Origin: Acidaminococcales bacterium
GTDB lineage: Bacteria; Bacillota; Negativicutes; Acidaminococcales; JAISLQ01
Assembly: GCA_031290885.1 (NCBI GenBank)
Contig: JAISLQ010000064.1
Span: forward strand, 1 to 46,075
Direction: 5' to 3'
DNA length: 46,075 bases
Positions 23,650 through 42,888 of the stretch are shown here, piece after piece. Positions within the stretch are counted from its first letter, which is position 1. Every line of letters starts with the position of its first letter. Made by a program: the position numbers and the translations under genes. The notes below the pieces were generated by a model that searched no databases, was not told the origin of the DNA, and worked only from the letters and a program-made list of their open reading frames with translations.

Positions 23650-24432
23650 ATGGGCAATTTAACAGATTTAAGCATAAAATTTGCGTCACAAAAGAACTAC
23701 CTTGACGAATTGTTCAAGGTATATCCGGCCATTCCAGAAGGCATTAGAGATATTGACGAAGAAAAACAATGTCACGTTGAAGAAAGTTTTAATGCTCATG
23801 ACAATATTAGCCTCATAACACATCTATTGTCTATGGACATTTTCCCGATCAAAGATTCATATGTAGCATATCTAAAACGAGACCCTACTGCCATACAAAG
23901 AAACCCAAATACAATCAATCGCCTATGTGGCAGACTTTATGAAATGGGCTTAGATGAAATAATTGACAAATGTTCATATCCAAAAGAAACCAATCGACAA
24001 ATTGGACCGCTTTTTAAAAAATGGCTTGCAAAGGGCGGTTTAGGCATCACGCCGGTAAATATGCAAACATTCGAAAACGGAAATGATAACGCTGTATTAG
24101 ATGCCTCTGATGCAGAAATGAAACAATGGTGTGCCAGAAATCTAAACTACACACGGGATAAGGGGCTTGATTTTGTTGGTAGATTTAATGGTAGATATAT
24201 AATTGGCGAGGCAAAATTTTTAACCGATTTTGGCGGTCATCAAAATGCTCAATTTGCTGACGCGATGAGTACCATAACAACTAAGTCTGTAAAGGCGGAA
24301 AAAATAGCAATACTGGATGGCGTCTTATATATAAAAGGAAATAATAAAATGTACCGGGATATTACTACGAAATACAGAGAATATAATATTTTCAGCGCTT
24401 TGCTTTTGCGCGAATATTTATATTCATTGTGA
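23650..24432 (+). CDS. Type II restriction endonuclease, PD-(D/E)XK type
   Basis: 260 residues, AT-rich codons unlike the flanks. The likely active site is D174 in GLDFVGRFNGRYIIGEAKF with E187 and K189 (D-x12-E-x-K), followed by LTDFGGHQNAQF, as in several type II enzymes. Upstream RNPNTINRLCGRLYEMGLDE may form a DNA-contacting helical part. The methyltransferase follows after nine bases, so the two form a restriction-modification operon. The recognition site cannot be read from the sequence. The start ATG at 23650 follows GTGGGAAGATGGG. Confidence 0.75.
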   Translation: MGNLTDLSIKFASQKNYLDELFKVYPAIPEGIRDIDEEKQCHVEESFNAHDNISLITHLLSMDIFPIKDSYVAYLKRDPTAIQRNPNTINRLCGRLYEMGLDEIIDKCSYPKETNRQIGPLFKKWLAKGGLGITPVNMQTFENGNDNAVLDASDAEMKQWCARNLNYTRDKGLDFVGRFNGRYIIGEAKFLTDFGGHQNAQFADAMSTITTKSVKAEKIAILDGVLYIKGNNKMYRDITTKYREYNIFSALLLREYLYSL

Positions 24433-24441
24433 GATGAAGAT

Positions 24442-25620
24442 ATGGAGTTGTTTTACCCTGGCAAAAGAAGTCAAGAAGATATTTTAAATTCAACTCCTGT
24501 TTGTAATTTCTCTGGATGTTTCAATCATGAAAACATACTCATTAAAGGAGAAAATTTAAATGTTTTACAAGCACTATTAAAGAATTATAATTTCAAAAAT
24601 AAAATAGATTTAATTTATATTGATCCACCATTTTCAACAAATACGGTTTTTACAATAGGGAAAGATCGTGTCAGCACCATTAGTATGAGTAATGACGATG
24701 AAATAGCTTATAATGATACTTTACAAGGGTATGCATTTATAAATTTTATCAGAGAAAGACTGATCATTGCAAAAGAGTTATTGTCCGAACAAGGGTCTAT
24801 TTATTTGCATATAGACTATAAAATAGGTCATTATATAAAAATAATAATGGACGAGGTCTTTGGCATAGAGAATTTTCGGAATGATATTGCCAGAATAAAA
24901 TGCAATCCTAAAAATTTCCCCAGAAAAGCATACGGCAATATTAAAGACATGATATTGTTTTACTCAAAAACCAATAAATTGATATGGAACGAACCTAAAA
25001 TCCCCTTTTCTTCAAAAGATAAAGAAACATTATTTAAAAAGATAGACAAAAATGGCAGAGCTTATACAACAATCCCTTTACATGCTCCTGGCGAAACAAA
25101 AGATGGAGTTACATCACGGGAATTTAAAGGTATGAAACCGCCTAAAGGCAGACATTGGAGAAGCGATCCAAGAGAACTTGAAGAACTTGACAAGGCCGGT
25201 CTAATTGAATGGTCTGCTAATGGAAACCACAGAAAAATTATTTATGCAGATGAACGGGAGGGAAAAAAAATACAGGACATTTGGGAATTTAAAGATTGCC
25301 AATACCCTGTATATCCAACCGAGAAAAATATGGATATGTTAAAAACAATAATTTTAGCTTCATCTAAGCAAAATAGTTATATTATGGACTTTTTCTGCGG
25401 GTCCGGCACTACATTAGCGGCAGCACAAGAATTAAATCGCAAATGGATAGGAATAGATAAATCAATTCATGCCATAAATGCAACGATAAATAAATTTAAA
25501 AACATTCCCCCCAATATGCTCTCAAATTCAGATTATTCCTATATTGAAGAAGAATGTGTGAATAAATCTTACAACGAAAACAATATACACGAAAGCATAC
25601 ATAGCTACATTGGTAAATAA
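24442..25620 (+). CDS. Site-specific DNA methyltransferase, beta class (N6-adenine likely)
   Basis: 392 residues. Catalytic motif IV is DLIYIDPPFSTN (D61-PPF), and the SAM-binding motif I follows late as MDFFCGSGTTLAAA (G320, G322), the order of beta-class amino methyltransferases. DPPF suggests adenine-N6 methylation. The middle (AYTTIPLHAPGE through PPKGRHWRSDPRELEEL) probably recognises the target. As the partner of the endonuclease upstream it protects host DNA. AT-rich composition marks both genes as acquired together. Confidence 0.9.
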   Translation: MELFYPGKRSQEDILNSTPVCNFSGCFNHENILIKGENLNVLQALLKNYNFKNKIDLIYIDPPFSTNTVFTIGKDRVSTISMSNDDEIAYNDTLQGYAFINFIRERLIIAKELLSEQGSIYLHIDYKIGHYIKIIMDEVFGIENFRNDIARIKCNPKNFPRKAYGNIKDMILFYSKTNKLIWNEPKIPFSSKDKETLFKKIDKNGRAYTTIPLHAPGETKDGVTSREFKGMKPPKGRHWRSDPRELEELDKAGLIEWSANGNHRKIIYADEREGKKIQDIWEFKDCQYPVYPTEKNMDMLKTIILASSKQNSYIMDFFCGSGTTLAAAQELNRKWIGIDKSIHAINATINKFKNIPPNMLSNSDYSYIEEECVNKSYNENNIHESIHSYIGK

Positions 25621-30419: not shown

Positions 30420-32017
30420 GCGCGCAGCCCTTCGGACAAGGCGGCGGCCACTTCCGGCGAATCGTCTACGAGATAGACGCGGCCGGGATGTCCGCTGCGG
30501 TCGTAGTCCACGCCGTTCCACCAGACGGCGGCCTTGATGTTGGGATATTTCGCTATTTTCGCGAACATGTCGCGGATCCAGGCCGCTTTGTCGCCGCCCA
30601 CCGAATTTGAGGAAAATTCCGTAATCATGAAAGGCTTGGCAAAAAAGGACAGGTACTTTTCGTACAGCGGCCGATAAATTTCATCAAAAGCCCGCCATTT
30701 TTCACCGGGGAAATAAGTGCCGGCGTTGTAGCCGGTCAGTCCGACGACGTCCACATATTCGTCCCCCGGGTAATAAGCCGCGAAACTGTTCCAGGCAAAA
30801 TCCGGCAAAGACGCGTCGTGCGGGTTCCATATCCAGATAAGGTTGTCCACTCCCGCCTCATCAAACAGTTTCCTGATATAGCGCCACAGTTCGACATATA
30901 TGCGCGGGTCGCGGGCAGTATAAAAAGCCGAATACCAGCACCAATCGCCGTTCATTTCATTGTTCAGGCGAAAAAGCACGGGTTTGCCGAACTTTTTCAG
31001 ATCCCGCGCGTAAGCGGCGAAATATTCGTCATAATGCCCGTTCAAAATTTCATAGGACACCAAGGCGTTGGCAGTCGCGCCTTCCGTTTTGAGCGCGTCG
31101 GCGCCGGCATCGTGGATGGTGGCAAGGGTCAGTTCCACCAGGCGGCCCCTTTGCCACGCCCGTTCAAGCTGCGCGAGCGGCAGCGGCTCGTCGACGCTCT
31201 GGTAGCGCAGAAGTATTTTAAAGCGGTGCCCCAAGGCCCGTTCCTTCTCCGCCAGCTGCCGGAAAGTCTGCGGCGCCGAATTTTCAAATATCCCCCAGGT
31301 AAGCCCGCTCCCGGAAGAAAATATTTCTTCGTAAACCGCGCGGGTAGCAGGATTCATCGGCGAGGTCCCGGCGTAGGGCTGCCTGCCGTCGCGCGGCGTC
31401 CCTTGGCGCTCGATGAAAGAAAAACTTTCGGTTATCCGCTCCGCCCGGTCGTCGCCGGGCAACGCGGACTTTACCATGATCGTATACGTTTCGTCCCGGC
31501 TGCGCCTGACCGAAGTCGCCGTATAATAATTCTTGTCGTTTTCCACCCTGGAGAGCTTGCCTCGCGACCATTTGGACGTAACGGCCGGACAGCCGCCCAC
31601 GGTGGCCGGATATTCGGCGGTTACGCGGTGCGCGATGCCCCGGCGCAAAAATTTGTTGCTGTAGTTTACCAGTTCGTGAAAACCGGCCGCTTTGCCGGAA
31701 AAATTGTCATGATATATTTCAACCGCCAAGCTGGGCGTCTCGAAAACATTGCGCAGGCTTGTCGCGCTTATGTCGACAAAGCTGCCTTTGGGTATGAGCA
31801 GGCGGTAACCGTTGGCGTGGTCGGTAAAAAGATCATAAGCATTGTCATAGCCGGCGACGCTTTTGCGGTCATGATCGCCCGTCTCCGAAACATCGGCCGC
31901 GCAGACATAGCCGTCGACAAAAAATTCCTCGGCGCCCGCCGGGGGCGGCGCGAGCGCGAGCGCAAGCAGCAGGCAAATGGCAGACAAAAATTTCCGGCTG
32001 GACAAAGTGGCCTCCAA
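30383..32017 (-). CDS. Exported GH26-family glycoside hydrolase with an N-terminal extra domain
   Basis: 544 residues; a signal peptide (FLSAICLLLALALAPPPAGA) is followed by about 200 residues of no recognised family. The GH26 barrel shows the acid/base Glu in FRLNNEMNGDWCWYS (E354) and the nucleophile in PFMITEFSSNSVG (E467), with LIWIWNPHDASLPDF and WWNGVDYD on loops. GH26 includes beta-mannanases and related endo-glycanases, so it may cut a mannan-like or mixed-linkage glucan; the exact specificity is unknown. Encoded antisense to the lipase, sharing 37 bases at the 3' ends. Confidence 0.8.
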   Translation of the reverse strand: MEATLSSRKFLSAICLLLALALAPPPAGAEEFFVDGYVCAADVSETGDHDRKSVAGYDNAYDLFTDHANGYRLLIPKGSFVDISATSLRNVFETPSLAVEIYHDNFSGKAAGFHELVNYSNKFLRRGIAHRVTAEYPATVGGCPAVTSKWSRGKLSRVENDKNYYTATSVRRSRDETYTIMVKSALPGDDRAERITESFSFIERQGTPRDGRQPYAGTSPMNPATRAVYEEIFSSGSGLTWGIFENSAPQTFRQLAEKERALGHRFKILLRYQSVDEPLPLAQLERAWQRGRLVELTLATIHDAGADALKTEGATANALVSYEILNGHYDEYFAAYARDLKKFGKPVLFRLNNEMNGDWCWYSAFYTARDPRIYVELWRYIRKLFDEAGVDNLIWIWNPHDASLPDFAWNSFAAYYPGDEYVDVVGLTGYNAGTYFPGEKWRAFDEIYRPLYEKYLSFFAKPFMITEFSSNSVGGDKAAWIRDMFAKIAKYPNIKAAVWWNGVDYDRSGHPGRVYLVDDSPEVAAALSEGLRAYPSSALAATDE

Positions 32018-32089
32018 GATAGTAAAGTATCACGCTGATTCCTTATTCTAACAGATAAGTTGATTTTTTGCCAGCGGGGGGCGATGGGC

Positions 32090-32764
32090 ATGGGCAGGAA
32101 CATGCCGCTGGACGCGGCCAGGGGGCTGGCGGTCTTTCTGATGCTGATCTTTCATCTGGCGGTGGATTTGGAAGACTTTTTCGGCCTTGCCACCGGCTAT
32201 GGATACGGCTGGTGGCAGGCGCTGCGCTATTTTACCGCTATGCTTTTCATAAGCGTCTCCGGCTGGACGGCCGGGGCAGGCGCAAAAGGCCGCGCCCGGC
32301 GCGGCGCTTTCAGGACGCTGGCCGGCGCTTTGCTGGTCAGTGCCGCTACATATATCTTTTTGGGCGAAAGCTACGTGCGGTTTGGCATACTGCACTTTTT
32401 AAGCTGCGCGCTTTTTCTGGTCCCCCTTTTGCGCGGGCAAAGCGATTTTTCTTTGTTTTTATTGGCCGCTTTTTCCGCCGCCGCCGGCTGGCTGCTGCCC
32501 GGCATAAATACGGACGCGGCTTTTCTTTTGCCTTTGGGCGCAATGCCGCGCGGATTTTACAGCGTGGATTATTACCCCTTGTTTCCCTGGCTGGCCGTTT
32601 TCATCGCGGGGCTGTCCGCCGGGCGGCGCCATGCGCCGCTGAAAGCGCGCCCCTGCGGCAACTTCGCCGTAAAGGCGGCGGCTTTTCTGGGGAAGCGTTC
32701 CCTTTTTATTTATTTGGCGCATCAACCATTATTTTTATTGTGTTTGTATGCCTTAATGGGGTAA
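32090..32764 (+). CDS. DUF1624 / heparan-alpha-glucosaminide N-acetyltransferase-like membrane protein
   Basis: I choose the ATG at 32090, about nine bases after a G-rich site; the ATG at 32084 is too close to it. The 224-residue product has six or seven hydrophobic segments and starts NMPLDAARGLAVFLMLIFHL, the conserved opening of this family with its active-site His. SLFIYLAHQPLFLLCLYALM is the last membrane helix. Members move acetyl groups across membranes onto sugars, so it may modify an envelope glycan. It is divergent from the GH26 gene. Confidence 0.75.
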   Translation: MGRNMPLDAARGLAVFLMLIFHLAVDLEDFFGLATGYGYGWWQALRYFTAMLFISVSGWTAGAGAKGRARRGAFRTLAGALLVSAATYIFLGESYVRFGILHFLSCALFLVPLLRGQSDFSLFLLAAFSAAAGWLLPGINTDAAFLLPLGAMPRGFYSVDYYPLFPWLAVFIAGLSAGRRHAPLKARPCGNFAVKAAAFLGKRSLFIYLAHQPLFLLCLYALMG

Positions 32765-32811
32765 ACTATGTATAGGGCAAACATGCGGTAATTTTTTTCA
32801 GGAGGTACGCC

Positions 32812-33627
32812 ATGCACAAAAAAGGGAGGTTTTTTGCCGCCTTGCTTTTATGCTTGTTGGTTTTTGCGGCGCAAGGCGGCAAATGCCACGCAAAAGAGCA
32901 ATCATGGGTATCGCTTGCCGCCGGGCAAATCCAATTGCCGGACGGCACGCGGATAGTGGAAATAGACATTCTTTCCCTGCTTGACCTGACAAAAGATTTT
33001 TATGTGGAGAAAGAAATGCTCCGGGCCATGTCCTTGGAAAACCGGCACGCGTATTATCAGAAACTATTTGAAATATTAAACGACCAGTCTTTGCGCTTCG
33101 CGCTCCGCGCCGTAAATTTGTATTTGGTAAACGTTCCGGACGGCGGCAACGATTATTACACCGCCTGGCTTGTTACCGTAAAAAGCAATAAGGAAACGGA
33201 AAAATTCCTGCCGGACGTTTTCAAGGGCAAAATGACCGAACAAAAAAAAGAGCAGGCCCTGGCTTGGTACGAGAAGCAAAAACAAGAAGTGGAAGGCATG
33301 TTCCCCCGCGGCGAAAAACCCGACTTTGCCGGCCCGGCGCGAAAAGTGGAATATGCTGACCTGTTTGGGTACAAACTTTCCGCAGAGTGCGAATGGCAAG
33401 GGCTGGACTTTATCACTATAAACAAAAAACCCGCCTTGAGCCACGGCGTTAGGCTCATCGGCGAAAACGGCGGCCTGTTTTCCGCTTTTTATGTCAAACG
33501 CTACATGTTTGGCGCGGGAAAGAAGCCGGCATCTTTGGCCATCGTTGCCTTTGACAGCGAGCGTTCTTTCTGGACGCGGGCGTTTGACCGAATCATGGCG
33601 GACGGCTTTAAGCCGTCCGCGCGTTAG
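32812..33627 (+). CDS. Hypothetical exported protein, paralogue 1
   Basis: 271 residues with AGGAGG before the ATG and a signal peptide (FFAALLLCLLVFAAQGGKCH) ending near a Cys-His. The body contains IVEIDILSLLDLTKDFYVEK and a C-terminal AIVAFDSERSFWTRAFDRIM. The end is clearly similar to that of the next gene, so the two are tandem paralogues. I do not recognise the family. Probably periplasmic or surface-exposed. Confidence 0.65.
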   Translation: MHKKGRFFAALLLCLLVFAAQGGKCHAKEQSWVSLAAGQIQLPDGTRIVEIDILSLLDLTKDFYVEKEMLRAMSLENRHAYYQKLFEILNDQSLRFALRAVNLYLVNVPDGGNDYYTAWLVTVKSNKETEKFLPDVFKGKMTEQKKEQALAWYEKQKQEVEGMFPRGEKPDFAGPARKVEYADLFGYKLSAECEWQGLDFITINKKPALSHGVRLIGENGGLFSAFYVKRYMFGAGKKPASLAIVAFDSERSFWTRAFDRIMADGFKPSAR

Positions 33628-33638
33628 GAGGCCGAGCC

Positions 33639-34406
33639 ATGAACAAACTTTGCGCAATGTTGGCGGCGCCCCTGTTGTCCTTGCTGCTCTTTTGGCCGCC
33701 GCTTCCGGGCGAATGTTATACGCCCGCCGGCCACAAAAAGGTGCCTTCCGCCATTGGTGCGCTGAATCTGCCCGCTGACGCTTACGTGGCGGAAATCGAT
33801 ATGTCGGCGAGCGTGAAGTATCTTCTGTCGCCGGTCGAGGAAGCCCTCTTCAAGCAGCTCAATGTCTACCAGGTTACCTTAAACGATGGGGAAAGTTACC
33901 GCAGCGCCGTGTTAATGGCGTTTTTTATGGACGATGCCGTCTTTAACGGGCGTTCCGGGAGCAAGCCCCCGGAGCAAAGGGGCAAAAGGTACCTTGAATA
34001 CAGCCAGTTGCAAAAGATCCTTTACACGCAAAAACAAATTTTGGACGAAATCGCATTTTTGCGCGTGCTGGCAGACGACCGCCTGTACGCGCCGCCGGAC
34101 AAAAACGGCGAGCGAAAGCCGTTTAAAATATTCGGGAGAGATTTTGGCCTTTTTGCGCGAAACAAACCGCAAGTATTTAGCTATGAATGGCCGGAAATTG
34201 CGGCGGCCATGATAAACGGCGAATTTGGCTTTAAATCCGATTTGCGGATTTCCGGCAGCTTGTTCGGGTTTATGGCGAGCATTTACGCCGCCGGAATAGC
34301 TTTCAACCACGAAGACAAAGGCGTAAACTTCCTGTTCTTTGTCGCCCCGGGCAGCGAGCGCGACTTTTGGGCGCCGATATTTGAAAAAACGGTTGTTGCG
34401 CAATAG
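33639..34406 (+). CDS. Hypothetical exported protein, paralogue 2
   Basis: 255 residues, twelve bases after paralogue 1, with AGGAGG upstream. Signal peptide (LCAMLAAPLLSLLLFWPPLP). YVAEIDMSASVKYLLSPVEE parallels IVEIDILSLLDLTKDFYVEK of the first protein, and FVAPGSERDFWAPIFEKTVV parallels its C-terminus, but overall identity is low. Function unknown; tandem placement and shared architecture suggest they act together or bind related partners. Confidence 0.65.
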   Translation: MNKLCAMLAAPLLSLLLFWPPLPGECYTPAGHKKVPSAIGALNLPADAYVAEIDMSASVKYLLSPVEEALFKQLNVYQVTLNDGESYRSAVLMAFFMDDAVFNGRSGSKPPEQRGKRYLEYSQLQKILYTQKQILDEIAFLRVLADDRLYAPPDKNGERKPFKIFGRDFGLFARNKPQVFSYEWPEIAAAMINGEFGFKSDLRISGSLFGFMASIYAAGIAFNHEDKGVNFLFFVAPGSERDFWAPIFEKTVVAQ

Positions 34407-36669: not shown

Positions 36670-37500
36670 TTGAAAGTTACAGTGCTTGTCGAAAACACGG
36701 TAAGCCTTGCCGCAGTCAAACCGCTTTTGGGGCAACACGGGCTGTCAATGCTTCTGGACATACCCAACTGCGGCAGGATACTTTTTGATTCCGGTTCGTC
36801 GGACATTCTGATAAAAAATCTTTTGCTCATGGACATAGTCCCCGACAGCGTGGATTACGCAGTTTTAACTCACGGCCATTACGCCCACTGCGGCGGCCTG
36901 TTGGAATTTTTGCGTTCGCGGAGCCTGCCGCTGACGGTTTTTGCCGGCCCGGGCATTTTTTCCCCGCGGTATATGCAAAGAAAAAACGGGCCGCTTGAAT
37001 TCGTCGGCATGCCTTATACCAAAGAACTGCTTACATCGGCGGGCGCGGAATTCATTTTCGTCTACGGCCCGACGCAGATAAGGGAAAACATCTGGCTGAG
37101 CGGCCCCATACCGAAAACGAGCGATTTTGAAAAGGAAAATGTTTCCATGCTGGACGCGAACGGCCAAACCGACCGTTTTACCGACGAGGTGGCTTTTTAT
37201 GTTTTGCGGCCGGAAGGCTTGGCGGTGTTTTCCGGCGGCTCGCACCGCGGGTTGGTCAACAGCATAAAATACGGGCAAAGGGTATCGGGCGCTAAAAAGA
37301 TACATGCGGTGGTCGGCGGCTCGCATCTTGCGGCGGCCGACAGCGAGCAGCAGGAGGCAACGCTGGCTTTCCTCAAGGAATCGGACATTAATATGTTGGC
37401 CCTTAACCATTGCACCGGCTTAAAAGTGCAAAGCATGCTGCTGGGGCAGGGCGGCGTGAAATTTGTAAGCGCCAACGCCGGCGACGTGCTGGAACTTTAG
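36670..37500 (+). CDS. Metallo-beta-lactamase-fold protein (dihydropterin ribofuranosyl-aminobenzene phosphate synthase-like) with altered metal motif
   Basis: I choose the TTG at 36670, eight bases after AGGAAAAGGGG; a GTG at 36661 overlaps that site. The 276-residue product resembles the MJ0301-type MBL group: ILFDSGSSDILIKNLLLMDI, then THGHYAHCGGLLEFL, later FSGGSHRGLVNSIKYG and LNHCTGLKV. The zinc motif HxHxDH normally has Asp before the last His; here A72 replaces it (H68-G-H70-Y-A72-H73), which should weaken one metal site. Function unknown. Confidence 0.8.
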   Translation: MKVTVLVENTVSLAAVKPLLGQHGLSMLLDIPNCGRILFDSGSSDILIKNLLLMDIVPDSVDYAVLTHGHYAHCGGLLEFLRSRSLPLTVFAGPGIFSPRYMQRKNGPLEFVGMPYTKELLTSAGAEFIFVYGPTQIRENIWLSGPIPKTSDFEKENVSMLDANGQTDRFTDEVAFYVLRPEGLAVFSGGSHRGLVNSIKYGQRVSGAKKIHAVVGGSHLAAADSEQQEATLAFLKESDINMLALNHCTGLKVQSMLLGQGGVKFVSANAGDVLEL

Positions 37501-37505
37501 ACTAT

Positions 37506-37523
37506 CGCGGGCGATCGCCCGCG
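37506..37523. other. Perfect 18-bp GC palindrome
   Basis: CGCGGGCGA is followed directly by TCGCCCGCG. It contains the octamer GCGATCGC. It sits just after the MBL gene's stop, without a T-run, so it is not a standard terminator by itself. Confidence 0.5.
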
Positions 37524-37546
37524 CGCAATATTAAGATATCGCAAAC

Positions 37547-37572
37547 GGCCTCGCGCGCGGGGCTGTTTTTTC
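37547..37572 (+). terminator. Possible rho-independent terminator after the MBL gene
   Basis: A GC-rich hairpin (GGCCTCGCG, then CGCGGGGCT) is followed by six T residues. It lies only about 20 bases before the giant gene's ATG, so that gene presumably has its promoter inside or after this region. Confidence 0.45.
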
Positions 37573-37593
37573 CCAATGGGGGGCCCTTTTTGC

Positions 37594-40500
37594 ATGGCAA
37601 CTGAAATTCAGCCGTCCTTTCATATTTTTGAATGTCTTAAAAACCTAAGCAACATAATGTTTTCGCCTGTCCGGGATCTTTCCGGTTGCGACAGCCTTTT
37701 GCCTGCGGATCAACTGCCTTTTGACCCGTACTGCCGGTTTTCGCCCCGGACGCGATGGACGTGCCGGCTCAAAATCAAAAAAACCAAATTCGACAGTTTT
37801 CCGGACATGCCGCCGGCGCTTGCCGGCTGGGTGGGCGATTGGGGCGGCCCGACGCCGGCGCAGCCGCCGCAGGCAAAAAAGTACCGCAAACAGGGCGGCG
37901 AATTTTGGCAAGGCGGGGGCGCGGACTTTCCAGCGCCGCTTCCGGCGCGGGAGGCCGGGGAGAGATTCGACGCCGATCCCGGGCGCGTAGCCGCATGGGA
38001 AAAATGGCTGCGCGACAAATGGCGGCCTTGGGCCAATGACAACGTGCAAAAGTACAAAGCGATACTGGCTTATGAAAAAATCCGCGCCTTGCAGCAAAAA
38101 TTGGCGCGCGGCGAAGGGCAATTCGAGCTATTTTGGGGGGCGGCGGTTTTTTATTGGAAATTTGGCGATGTCAAGCTGCGCCGCCCTCTCCTGACGCAGC
38201 GGCTGGAAATTGAATGTTCGCCGGACACGGGGGAAATATGCCTTGCCGCCAAACATTCGCCCGCCCGGCTGGAATATGAGGCGCTTTCCGGCATCCCCGG
38301 CGTAAATTTCAAGGAGCTGTTTTCTTTGGAAAATTCCCTGTTCGATGCGCCTTTTGACTTGTTCGACGCGCCGGCGGCGGCCGCCTTCAGCCAAAGGCTG
38401 GCGGCGGCGATTGGCAACGGCTGCGAAACCGGCGGCGCGGATAAAACGGCGCAGGTTTCGGAGAGGAACTGCCCGGTTATCTGCCTTGATGAACAGGCGC
38501 TTTTCCTGCGCCGGCTTGACGGGCGGCAATGGCGGGGCGAACTGGAAGCCATCACGGAAGCCGTTGAGGCGGGCGCCGCCTTGCCCGGCATTTTTGGCTA
38601 TTATTATGGCCATCGGCAAAGGCCCGGCGGCCTTTTCGGCAAAGAGCAGGAAGAAGCCGGCAATTTGCTGTTTCCCTGGCGGACGGATTCCGTCTGTGCC
38701 GACATAGCGCGCCGGCTGGCCTCCGATGCGCTGGTCGTCGTGCAGACGCCGCCGCAGAGCGCAAAAGAAGCTTTTGTCGCCGATATGCTGGCGCATCTTC
38801 TCGCCCAAGGGCAAAAAGTATTGGTTACTGGCCCTTTGCGGGAACCGCTGCAAAAAATAGCCGGCCTTTTGCGTAAGGACTTGCCGGAATTGGCGGGCCT
38901 TTGCGCCCTCGCTGTCGGCAACGGGCAAGACAATGCGCGGGAACTTTTGGCGGCCTTGAAAATGCACAGGCAAAAGCTCAACGGGCGCGGCCGGGAAAAA
39001 CCGGGGCGCGCGGCGGCGAAGCTAAAGGAGCGGCTGGATTTTTTTCAGCGGGAATTGGACGAGGACCGCCGGCAGGTACAAGCCGCCCGCGCCCTGGAAC
39101 ATACCCGGCGCTTCAGCGTAAAAGGACAGGATTTGGCTCCCTGGCAGACGGCCAAATGGCTACAGGAAAACCGGAGCCGGCTTGGTTTCATACCTGACGA
39201 CATCGGCCATGATCAAGCCTGCCCGTTGGACAAAGACGAAATGAACCGGTTTTTTGCCCTGGCCGGAAAAATGTCCCTGGCGGAGGAAGAAATTTTTTCT
39301 TTGCGGCTCCCCCCCGGCGGCGAACTATTGGACAGCGGCGCCCTGTCTTCGCTTTTCAGCGCCCTTTCTGATCTTAAAGCCAACCGGGAAAAACAAAAGC
39401 AGCTGCTGGACGATTGCGCGGCAATGGCTGACGTCGGCGCCGAAACCATAGCCGGTATTTTAGCCGAATGCCAACAGGCCCTGGCCGATCTTCCCGACGG
39501 CGGCAGCTGGATAGGCGAGATTTTACGCGAAATAGTGGAGTTGCCGCATAAAAACAGGCTTTGGCAGGAATGTTGCCAGAACGCTTTTGCCGGACTTGAA
39601 AGGATAAAAGTTTCGGCGGCGCAGACGGCCGGCCACGCCTTTACATTGCCGGAAGAATTTCCCGCGCCGCTTTTGCGCGAAGCCCTCTATGATTTGCGCC
39701 TGGAATTTTACAAAAACAAACGCCCGGGGATTTTGTTTAAGGCGCTGGCCAAAAAAAGCACCGTCAGGGCGTACAAAGAATGTCTGGTGGACGGGTTGCC
39801 GGCGGACGGGTTGCCGGCGGTGGACTTGCTTTTGGGCAAAATAAATTGCCTTGATGAAAAAGAGAAGGCGGCCGACAAATGGAATTTTATGATGGCGCAA
39901 GTGCAAGGGCCGCGCCTTGACGCTTCAAGCCCGTCTTTCCCCGACGATTTGGCGGAATACGCCGCAAAGCTCCGGGCGGCCTTGGATTGGCGGATGAAAT
40001 ATTTTGAAAAACTGAAAGAACACTGGCAGAAGTTCGTTTTGCGCCAACCGCCGCGCTGGGCGGATCGCGATTGGCTGATCGGGCTGGTTGCCAAACTGCG
40101 GGCTTGGCTGAAAGAGAAAAAAATAGAAGAATTGGAAAAATTGCTTGCCCGGCAACATGGCCTTATAATGGGGGACGGAGACGGGCAAAAGCTTGACCCG
40201 ATCTGCCGGGAACTGTCCGCAGCTTTGTCTGCCCGGGACGTTGAACGGTGGCAATTTTGCCTGGACGCGCTTTTGGCGTTGGAAAACAAGCATAAATTAT
40301 GGCGGGAATTTAAACTGTTGTATGAGAAACTGCGAGAAGCCGCCCCCGTATGGGCAAAAGAGACGGCGACGCGCGGACGGGAGGCCAATCTTGCCGCAGC
40401 GCCCCAAGACTGGCCGCAGGCTTGGCGGTTTAAGCAGGCCGGCGCTTGGCTGAAACGGCACATGGAGGGCAATCCGCTGGAAAAGATAACGGCGCGGTTT

Positions 40501-41928
40501 TACAACAGGCGCTTGGACGAGCCGGCCATGATCGGGGAATTTGCGGCGGCCGGCGCATGGAATTGGCAAATTGGCCGCCTCGCGCCGGAAGAGGTGGGGG
40601 CGCTGGATTTCATTCTGGGCGATGCCGGCCGGGGCGGCGAAGAGACGACTGACGGCAGGCCGGATTATGAATTTTGGCGCGCTGCGGAATTTTGGCGGAT
40701 GAGCTTGCCCGCCTGGGTAATGCCGCTGGATATTCTGACGGAAGCGGCCGGGCCGTTTGACCGCATGTTTGACGTGGTGATCGCAATCGACAGCGAAAAA
40801 TGCGATATTTTCAGCGCCGGCCTTTTGCTGCGCGGCAAAAAGGCGCTGATTGCCGGCGACAACGCGCTTGCGGGGCCGGCGCCTTATGAACGGGTGGATG
40901 CGGCGGTTAACATAGCTTTGGAAAAAGCCTTTCTCGGCGTCCCTGACAAGATGCAATTCGCGCTAAACGACAGCCTGTATGATTTTGCCCTGCGGCTCGC
41001 GGACAACAGGAGTTTCATATTGGGCGCATCTTCCGGGCCCTATGGCCTGAACGAATTTATCGGCAAACATTTTTACGCCGGCAAACTGCCGCTGCCGCCG
41101 CCGGCGCAAACTCGCGGCCTTGCGCCGGCCCTGCTGAAAATACCGGCGCGGGACGCGCGGCCGGACGGACAGACGAACGCGGACGAAGCGCGGATCATTA
41201 TTGCCCGTCTGGCCCTTATGCTCACACAAAAAGAATATGAAGGCAAAACGGCGGCGATAATCACCTTGGGCGGCGCCGAGCAGCAGCAATTGCTGGAAAA
41301 TTTCCTGCTGGAGCAAATACCGGAACAGGAAATAGCCGCCCGCCGGCTGGTTGCTTCCGCGCTTGAAGGCTATACCGGCGGCCGGCGGGACGTGATACTG
41401 GTTTCGTGCGTGTCGGCGCGGATAGCGGAAGCGGCCGGGCAGCGCCAATTAAATGGCGTTTTGGGGCTGGCGCGCGAACAGGTTGCGCTGTTTCATCCTT
41501 TCTCCGCCCAAGACCTCCCGGCCTGGTCCGCAGTCGCCGGCCTTCTGGATTTAGAGGAGGCGGCAGTAGAAGGCGGCAAAAGCCCCGATGCTTTATTTGA
41601 ACAGTTTTCCACCAGCGAAATTGTGCGCGATATTTTTGCCGCGATTTCGCAAAGGGGCTACAAGGCTTTGCCGGAATACGAGGGCCGCGGCCTGTCCTGC
41701 CGGTTCGACATTGTCATAAAAAGCGAAGAGTTCAACGTGGCGGTTGTTTGCGACGGCATAAGAAACCAAGAAGAAATCGAGCGGCTGATGAAGCAGGAGG
41801 ACGAACTTATGGGGCGCGGCTGGCATTTTTATCACATACGCGGCTGCGCCTTTTACGCCGACAAAAGCGCCGCTTTGTCTGGGCTGTGGAAAAAACTGGC
41901 CGCACTTGGGATGGCGGCGGCAAATTAA
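37594..41928 (+). CDS. Giant SF1 helicase-nuclease-like protein with degenerate catalytic motifs
   Basis: 1444 residues from the ATG at 37594, behind a G-run; an ATG at 37576 has no ribosome site. The layout matches Dna2/NAM7-like SF1 helicases with a C-terminal PD-(D/E)XK (MTES_1575-like) nuclease. Walker A reads VVVQTPPQSAKEA (T385-A393) instead of GPPGTGKT/S, though the KVLVTG strand after it remains. Motif II reads FDVVIAIDSEKCDI (1059-1072), losing the Asp-Glu pair. Motif VI reads LNGVLGLAREQ (1286-1296), lacking the first Arg of the T-R-A-R signature. The nuclease keeps D1372 but has V1385 where the I-E-C-D-G motif has Glu. The frame is open throughout, so it looks maintained as a pseudoenzyme, just upstream of rapZ. 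Confidence 0.75.
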   Translation: MATEIQPSFHIFECLKNLSNIMFSPVRDLSGCDSLLPADQLPFDPYCRFSPRTRWTCRLKIKKTKFDSFPDMPPALAGWVGDWGGPTPAQPPQAKKYRKQGGEFWQGGGADFPAPLPAREAGERFDADPGRVAAWEKWLRDKWRPWANDNVQKYKAILAYEKIRALQQKLARGEGQFELFWGAAVFYWKFGDVKLRRPLLTQRLEIECSPDTGEICLAAKHSPARLEYEALSGIPGVNFKELFSLENSLFDAPFDLFDAPAAAAFSQRLAAAIGNGCETGGADKTAQVSERNCPVICLDEQALFLRRLDGRQWRGELEAITEAVEAGAALPGIFGYYYGHRQRPGGLFGKEQEEAGNLLFPWRTDSVCADIARRLASDALVVVQTPPQSAKEAFVADMLAHLLAQGQKVLVTGPLREPLQKIAGLLRKDLPELAGLCALAVGNGQDNARELLAALKMHRQKLNGRGREKPGRAAAKLKERLDFFQRELDEDRRQVQAARALEHTRRFSVKGQDLAPWQTAKWLQENRSRLGFIPDDIGHDQACPLDKDEMNRFFALAGKMSLAEEEIFSLRLPPGGELLDSGALSSLFSALSDLKANREKQKQLLDDCAAMADVGAETIAGILAECQQALADLPDGGSWIGEILREIVELPHKNRLWQECCQNAFAGLERIKVSAAQTAGHAFTLPEEFPAPLLREALYDLRLEFYKNKRPGILFKALAKKSTVRAYKECLVDGLPADGLPAVDLLLGKINCLDEKEKAADKWNFMMAQVQGPRLDASSPSFPDDLAEYAAKLRAALDWRMKYFEKLKEHWQKFVLRQPPRWADRDWLIGLVAKLRAWLKEKKIEELEKLLARQHGLIMGDGDGQKLDPICRELSAALSARDVERWQFCLDALLALENKHKLWREFKLLYEKLREAAPVWAKETATRGREANLAAAPQDWPQAWRFKQAGAWLKRHMEGNPLEKITARFYNRRLDEPAMIGEFAAAGAWNWQIGRLAPEEVGALDFILGDAGRGGEETTDGRPDYEFWRAAEFWRMSLPAWVMPLDILTEAAGPFDRMFDVVIAIDSEKCDIFSAGLLLRGKKALIAGDNALAGPAPYERVDAAVNIALEKAFLGVPDKMQFALNDSLYDFALRLADNRSFILGASSGPYGLNEFIGKHFYAGKLPLPPPAQTRGLAPALLKIPARDARPDGQTNADEARIIIARLALMLTQKEYEGKTAAIITLGGAEQQQLLENFLLEQIPEQEIAARRLVASALEGYTGGRRDVILVSCVSARIAEAAGQRQLNGVLGLAREQVALFHPFSAQDLPAWSAVAGLLDLEEAAVEGGKSPDALFEQFSTSEIVRDIFAAISQRGYKALPEYEGRGLSCRFDIVIKSEEFNVAVVCDGIRNQEEIERLMKQEDELMGRGWHFYHIRGCAFYADKSAALSGLWKKLAALGMAAAN

Positions 41929-42009
41929 ATCAAATCTTTAATAAGGCGCGCCTGTCTGCGGCAAGCTGGCTTTTTTGCCGCGGGCGGCGCCCTGCTGGGG
42001 GGACTGGCC

Positions 42010-42888
42010 GTGAAGAAAGCGGAGTTTTTGATCATAACCGGGATGTCGGGCGCGGGCAAAAGTTTTGTGCTGAAAGTCCTGGAGGACTGGGAATTTTTCT
42101 GCATAGACAATCTGCCGCCGGAACTCATCCCCAAATTCGCGGAACTTTACCGGCAAATGGATTGGCACAAAAATGTCGCCGTAGTGGTGGATATAAGGCT
42201 GGGAAATTTTTTCGACCAATTGACGGCCGTTTTTCAGGACTTTGCCAAAACTGGTTTTGAATATGACCTTTTGTTTTTGGATTGCAGCGACGAAAAACTC
42301 ATCCGGCGCTACAAAGAAACCAGACGGCGGCATCCGCTGGCCGCGGACGGCCGGGTAAGCAACGGGATAAACTTGGAAAGGGACGCGTTAAGCCGGGTAC
42401 GCGAGCTGTCGACCGTCATAATAGATACTAGCGACATGGCGACCGCCGAACTGAAACAAAAAATCGCGGAAATGTTTTTCAAGGGAAAAAGCGATTCCGG
42501 GCTTGGCATAACGATAGTGTCCTTTGGTTTCAAGTTCGGCATTCCCACGGACGCCGACATGGTCATTGACGTGCGTTTTTTGGACAATCCTTTTTACGTG
42601 GAGCGACTTCGGCATAAAAACGGCCATGACAAAGAAGTGGCAAATTATATAATGCAATCGCCCGTAACCGGTGAATTTTTAGCCAAACAGGGGGATTTGC
42701 TTGATTTTTTGCTGCCGCAATTCGTAAAAGAAGGCAAATCGCAGTTGGTAATCGCGATCGGCTGCACCGGCGGCATGCATCGGTCGGTATTTGTCGCCAA
42801 CGCGTTGGCGGATCGGCTCAAAGTCCAGGGCTACAAAGTACGCAAGGAAGACCGGGACTTGGCGAAAAACCTGAAGGCCGCGACTTAG
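42010..42888 (+). CDS. rapZ: RNase adapter / nucleotide-binding protein RapZ (YvcJ)
   Basis: Starts at a GTG behind a G6 run; 292 residues. ITGMSGAGKS (P-loop, residues 10-18) and the switch segment FFCIDNLPPELIPKF are family marks, and IGCTGGMHRSVFVANALA is the C-terminal phosphate-binding part. In E. coli RapZ steers GlmY/GlmZ RNA processing; in Firmicutes YvcJ is a nucleotide-binding protein linked to competence. The order rapZ-yvcK-whiA is a classic Firmicutes and Actinobacteria arrangement. Confidence 0.95.
   Translation: MKKAEFLIITGMSGAGKSFVLKVLEDWEFFCIDNLPPELIPKFAELYRQMDWHKNVAVVVDIRLGNFFDQLTAVFQDFAKTGFEYDLLFLDCSDEKLIRRYKETRRRHPLAADGRVSNGINLERDALSRVRELSTVIIDTSDMATAELKQKIAEMFFKGKSDSGLGITIVSFGFKFGIPTDADMVIDVRFLDNPFYVERLRHKNGHDKEVANYIMQSPVTGEFLAKQGDLLDFLLPQFVKEGKSQLVIAIGCTGGMHRSVFVANALADRLKVQGYKVRKEDRDLAKNLKAAT

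Follow-up and report, generated by a model that had tools for sequence, protein, structure and literature searches.

The window analyzed here, a 46,075-nucleotide stretch of DNA from an Acidaminococcales bacterium, encodes a 1,444-amino-acid protein (37594..41928, plus strand) that combines a UPF1-like SF1 helicase with a Vsr-type (MTES_1575) nuclease fold and in which every helicase motif is altered. The one other genome of the genus included in the analysis, that of a congener (Acidaminococcales bacterium isolate Iy174_bin70, contig record JAISPA010000197; an uncultured MAG with a 75%-complete assembly), has a copy with 74% identity that shows the same motif losses and likewise lies downstream of the MBL gene. 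In the two species, catalytic residues are lost and dN/dS between them is well below 1, the combination by which we define a selected pseudoenzyme, and we regard the conclusion that the pseudohelicase is kept under selection as firm. The best explanation as a whole, to which we assign a probability of roughly 0.55, is that a defense-like helicase-nuclease was taken over, with a dead motor and a selected ATP-independent binding or scaffold role. An earlier note on this DNA had proposed a non-enzymatic role (DNA scaffold, decoy, or regulator) and an undescribed pseudoenzyme family. The shared losses and dN/dS values support such a role well for the helicase part, the three specific roles being candidates, while an undescribed family can be claimed only in the narrow sense of a pair of species.

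Profile searches placed the window protein, over its whole length, in a broad family with members in Pelosinus, Lucifera, Bacillus, Clostridium, Actinomycetota, Planctomycetota, Pseudomonadota, and others; identity to the Pelosinus, Lucifera, and Bacillus members was 25 to 26% over residues 9 to 1440. A contig scan with the window protein alone as the query gave no match. Among 86 usable homologs, GPPGTGK[ST], DE[AS]SQ, GD..Q, HFR, FQG, and [ST]R were conserved at 98 to 100% at the majority of key positions; another 29 loci agreed apart from conservative changes or truncation. The motifs were intact in about 100 homologs from several phyla, including the nearest ones (Pelosinus, Lucifera, and another Acidaminococcales family). 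The member from the last of these (G003; 1,479 aa) had its full set of helicase motifs and a nuclease motif that is degenerate. The motor-loss state was confined to the window protein and its congener, at every motif and in nearly the same letters; it is known from two sequences, both from MAGs, one of them cut at residue 1390. Profile matches occurred in 81 of 380 genomes of the class, and none of those examined shared the motor loss. At the locus of the window, the searches recovered no close homolog with intact Walker A or B motifs, the observation that the earlier note had taken as the sign of a single decaying copy.

In two trees, the pair fell within a clade of Negativicutes homologs (Pelosinus, Lucifera, and others), separate from the paralog clade present in the congener (G001) and G003, with long branches that make its exact sister uncertain. 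The stem branch of the pair measured 2.7 to 3.05 changes per site, compared to 0.11 to 0.22 on the tips. Since the losses are common to both genus members and the motifs are intact in about 100 homologs, the loss represents a lineage-specific event on this very long stem branch; as read from the sequences, the motor was lost on the stem and then fixed by selection. Intact frames of 1,625 to 1,696 aa from the other clade of the family (L011 5133-10007 and L012 4440-9527) were seen in the congener and G003 and are absent from the window genome. A phage or mobile-element origin was rejected, as phages and IMG/VR contained no relative and plasmids only distant ones (about 24%).

Intact UPF1-like helicases with an MTES_1575 REase domain form a PDC-S37-like family (Pelosinus propionicus L062, Lucifera butyrica L063, Bacillus sp. 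L061) of the same length class and domain order, beside whose Negativicutes members the window pair nests. Whole-length homology and the C-terminal MTES_1575 domain are shared; the family members keep all helicase motifs (I to VI), whereas none is complete in the window protein or its congener. Matches to PADLOC PDC-S37 had E values of 3e-39 for the G003 member, 5e-60 and 9e-63 for the paralogs, and 1.6e-5 for the window protein. Because the intact family matches this PADLOC candidate, a defense ancestry of the family is plausible; a literature search on PDC-S37 and ProA found nothing. The same resemblance, together with a weaker one to MkoC/MkoA and Hhe, would also suit an inactive defense sensor or decoy, which binds phage nucleic acid or an anti-defense protein and either acts via another effector or soaks up inhibitors. 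The intact other-clade paralog elsewhere in the congener genome and a restriction-modification system about 12 kb upstream in the window are consistent with this alternative. However, the window genome has no intact paralog, no defense gene is adjacent, and the gene sits at the same locus in two species, although defense genes usually turn over. The defense role of the family is itself a database candidate only, and we consider a sensor or decoy unlikely.

The gene has HAD, MBL, rapZ, yvcK, and whiA genes as neighbors in the window, so that its reported adjacency to rapZ-yvcK-whiA is real. The motif losses are shared in the congener, but the 75%-complete congener assembly contained no rapZ, and two related families had no helicase at the rapZ locus. 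The rapZ neighborhood therefore says little about function, and the related genomes lend no support to a function with rapZ. Where the window (37500-42010) has the pseudohelicase, the HAD-MBL...rapZ-yvcK-whiA block of a different family within the order (G002, L022 9737-16136) has other genes between MBL and rapZ, which look, by their sequences, like biotin synthesis genes and a PHP protein. No conserved neighbors of the intact homologs were evident by eye. Elsewhere, at 23650-25620, the window encodes a type II restriction enzyme of the Tsp45I type (PF06300, E 2e-115) with an N6/N4 DNA methylase after it. It also contains four consecutive predicted proteins without a Pfam match (30818-32038, 32068-32775, 32812-33627, and 33639-34406), the last two with signal-peptide-like N termini. 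Scanning the window for Rfam families and tRNAs gave no matches. Acidaminococcales have been reported in a termite-gut MAG survey (PMC9137090). The window genome carries a separate AddAB-like operon on another contig and no other AAA_12 helicase; thus, the protein is neither the AddB of this genome nor the partner of an intact paralog of its own kind. A regulator of an intact paralog is unlikely there for the same reason; the congener has one such helicase, of the other clade.

The motifs, all on the plus strand, were compared with those of the 86 intact homologs. Walker A (motif I; residues 381 to 393, VVVQTPPQSAKEA; 38734..38772) has changed from GPPGTGK[ST] to TPPQSAKE in the window, with the lysine kept, and reads A/TPPQSAKE across both genus members. 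Walker B (motif II; residues 1059 to 1073, FDVVIAIDSEKCDIF; 40768..40812; family FDVVIVDE[AS]SQ) displays IDSEK instead of DE[AS]SQ, and motif III (residues 1084 to 1098, ALIAGDNALAGPAPY; 40843..40887; family VGDDxQxSP) displays GDNAL instead of GDDxQ. The arginine of motif IV (residues 1141 to 1158, FILGASSGPYGLNEFIGK; 41014..41067; family LxEHFRCVPEII) was lost in the change from EHFRC to GASSGP. Motif V (residues 1250 to 1274, RRLVASALEGYTGGRRDVILVSCVS; 41341..41415), in which 23 of 25 residues are identical between the two species, reads YTGGRRD for FQGDERD, with Gln replaced by Thr and Glu by Arg. Leucine takes the place of the arginine finger in motif VI (residues 1284 to 1303; 41443..41502; family NVAxSRAxxQ), where SRAKEQ has become GLAREQ in the window and both species share NGVL(G/S)LAREQ. 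These comparisons agree with the earlier reading of Walker A as TPPQSAKEA, of Ile-Asp for the Walker B Asp-Glu, and of Leu at the arginine finger; the Glu-Gly for Gln-Gly described before motif VI was an alignment slip, the actual changes being those given for motif V. Family-invariant residues were kept at 40 of 57 positions outside the motifs versus 18 of 40 inside (Fisher P = 0.02), and Pfam detected the helicase weakly (AAA_12, 18.8 bits; AAA_11, 11.3 bits; both below the cutoff).

The MTES_1575 (Vsr-type) nuclease-fold domain (41626..41898, plus strand) matched PF18741 with an E value of 4.6e-13 and 49.5 bits against a cutoff of 38.2 (residues 1351 to 1441 of the protein counted from 37576). 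Its catalytic Glu is Val (VCDG versus ECDG), as previously noted, though the domain is only partly degenerate, with Asp1372 and Asp1387 kept. The corresponding site reads VCDG, DCSG, SCNG, or DCDG in relatives with intact motors, and the Glu change is therefore not diagnostic. Erosion of ECDG was repeated in homologs L030, L010, L037, L044, and L046, whose motors are intact, which suggests that the nuclease is often dispensable in the family. The residues kept (Lys391, Gly1088-Asp1089, Gly1262, Arg1265, Asp1372, and Asp1387), a nuclease domain above the Pfam cutoff, and strong conservation of the dead-motif segments could point to a divergent enzymatic activity, either non-canonical nucleotide binding via the retained Walker A Lys or cleavage at what remains of the nuclease site. 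Against such an activity, the Mg-ligand Ser/Thr, the Walker B Asp-Glu, the motif IV Arg, the motif V Gln and Glu, and the motif VI Arg were lost together, and the nuclease Glu was lost as well; we regard it as improbable.

The reading frame is already open from 37576, and comparison of the window with the congener places the conserved start at the ATG at 37594, in agreement with the earlier note. In the congener, the last features on contig C287 are the MBL gene, a hairpin, and ATG CCG ACC AAA ATC CAG; contig C12 opens with the next codon after CAG (CCG TCC), so that the two abut exactly at the pseudohelicase start (ATG GCA ACT GAA ATT CAG CCG TCC in the window). The MBL-then-helicase upstream order is therefore common to both species. 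Separating the MBL stop from the pseudohelicase start is a GC-rich hairpin followed by a T-run (window 37543-37568), some 25 nt ahead of the ATG. The congener retains the stem and has a different loop. This element may serve to terminate MBL transcription or to attenuate the pseudohelicase gene. The frame is open over 4.3 kb with normal codon use, as the earlier note had stated (CAI-like value of 0.718 versus 0.70 to 0.80 in neighboring genes, and 0.60 and 0.43 in the off-frames).

Over 1,384 codons compared between window and congener, no stop and no indel was found at a dS of about 0.44 to 0.54. The dN/dS was far below 1 by all three methods (NG86, 0.284, with a bootstrap 95% interval of 0.238 to 0.335; YN00, 0.36; ML, 0.37). 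The values for neighboring genes were lower (MBL, 0.16 to 0.21; hemerythrin, 0.08 to 0.14), so the constraint on the pseudohelicase is moderate. Each region was well below 1 (N terminus, 0.33; insertion, 0.24; helicase second half, 0.29), and the seven former motif segments (122 codons) showed an omega of 0.14 (0.06 to 0.29). Identity was 88.5% in these dead-motif segments versus 72.7% elsewhere (Fisher P = 5.5e-5), and 27 of the 32 changed residues at family-invariant columns were identical between the two species. Thus, the altered motifs are not drifting; few parts of the protein are under stronger constraint. The expectation that neutral decay would add stops was confirmed by simulation (500 runs), which gave a mean of 25 stops per lineage, with a minimum of 10, and about 41% protein identity for the divergence of this pair. 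Although the long stem branch and a dN/dS above that of the neighbors might recall a decaying pseudogene that has acquired no stops so far, such decay is refuted for the period after the two species diverged by the lack of stops and indels in either lineage and by an omega with an upper bound of 0.335 and its lowest values in the motif segments, and we give it hardly any credence.

Structure prediction was performed on two fragments. The AlphaFold2 model of residues 245 to 1444 (mean pLDDT, 78; pTM, 0.55) matched Setx, Sen1, Upf1, Dna2, and IGHMBP2 in Foldseek (E 1e-9 to 1e-7); since the underlying alignment includes intact homologs, the model backs ancestry more than it proves the present fold of this copy. 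The second fragment, the first 560 residues, gave lower model confidence and no match. The N-terminal region of about 360 residues (37594..38673, plus strand) is family-wide by alignment and without known fold (model pLDDT, 69; no Foldseek PDB match below E 0.2).

In the mechanism that we propose, a UPF1-like SF1B helicase with a Vsr-type nuclease fold, from a family resembling single-gene antiphage defense, would have been taken over in the ancestor of one uncultured Acidaminococcales genus. Along the long, fast stem branch, the residues for ATP binding, hydrolysis, and translocation disappeared, as the sequences show, and nuclease activity was probably lost on the same stem; the new form has since been under the purifying selection measured between the two species. 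In its present state the protein would be a static scaffold of two RecA domains, independent of ATP, whose long helical insertion and remodeled inter-RecA cleft bind a nucleic acid or a partner protein. The remodeled motif segments, the slowest-evolving parts, would form that binding surface. We see the chances of this ATP-independent scaffold at a remodeled cleft as evenly balanced. Weak nucleotide binding is possible, since not all motif residues are gone, the Walker A Lys being one of those kept.

To our knowledge, pseudohelicases are rare, and the known bacterial ones, RecC and AddB, are of UvrD-like ancestry. The window protein looks like a second route to a bacterial pseudohelicase, from a putative defense helicase-nuclease. 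With intact relatives nearby, the order of losses, with repeated erosion of the nuclease and a single loss of the motor, can be studied, as can the constraint reimposed on the dead motifs. For annotation, the protein is a warning that a nuclease domain that passes Pfam can sit on a dead motor.

Among known systems, the best matches to the predicted fold (residues 245 to 1444) are the solved SF1B helicases UPF1, SEN1, and DNA2, which are active ATPases. The yeast SSU processome protein Utp25, described as a validated pseudohelicase (PMC9539457), similarly keeps a helicase fold for a non-helicase role in which the motifs are dispensable; it differs in its eukaryotic DEAD-box (SF2) ancestry and its function in ribosome assembly. 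In RecC and AddB, an inactivated SF1 helicase fold serves as a surface for binding and scanning, by which Chi is recognized (PMC4824097, PMC1185551). The window protein shares with them an SF1 helicase fold, here by prediction, with lost motor motifs, and RecC also has an inactivated nuclease-like domain. However, RecC and AddB are of UvrD-like ancestry with a PD-(D/E)xK nuclease, whereas the window protein is UPF1-like with a Vsr-type nuclease; they are also obligate subunits with RecB and AddA, whereas no active helicase partner gene is found among the HAD, MBL, rapZ, yvcK, and whiA neighbors. Homology to RecC or AddB was rejected, as the best sequence and fold matches are UPF1, SEN1, and DNA2 and the genome has its AddAB-like operon. 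The likeness would thus be one of analogy, with an independent origin. That the protein is an independently evolved counterpart of RecC and AddB, a whole helicase-nuclease made non-catalytic under selection whose remodeled motifs provide a novel site for the specific binding of a partner or nucleic acid, is a tentative proposal that we place somewhat short of even odds; by the same analogy, it has probably taken on a non-enzymatic role in the way that RecC and AddB did.
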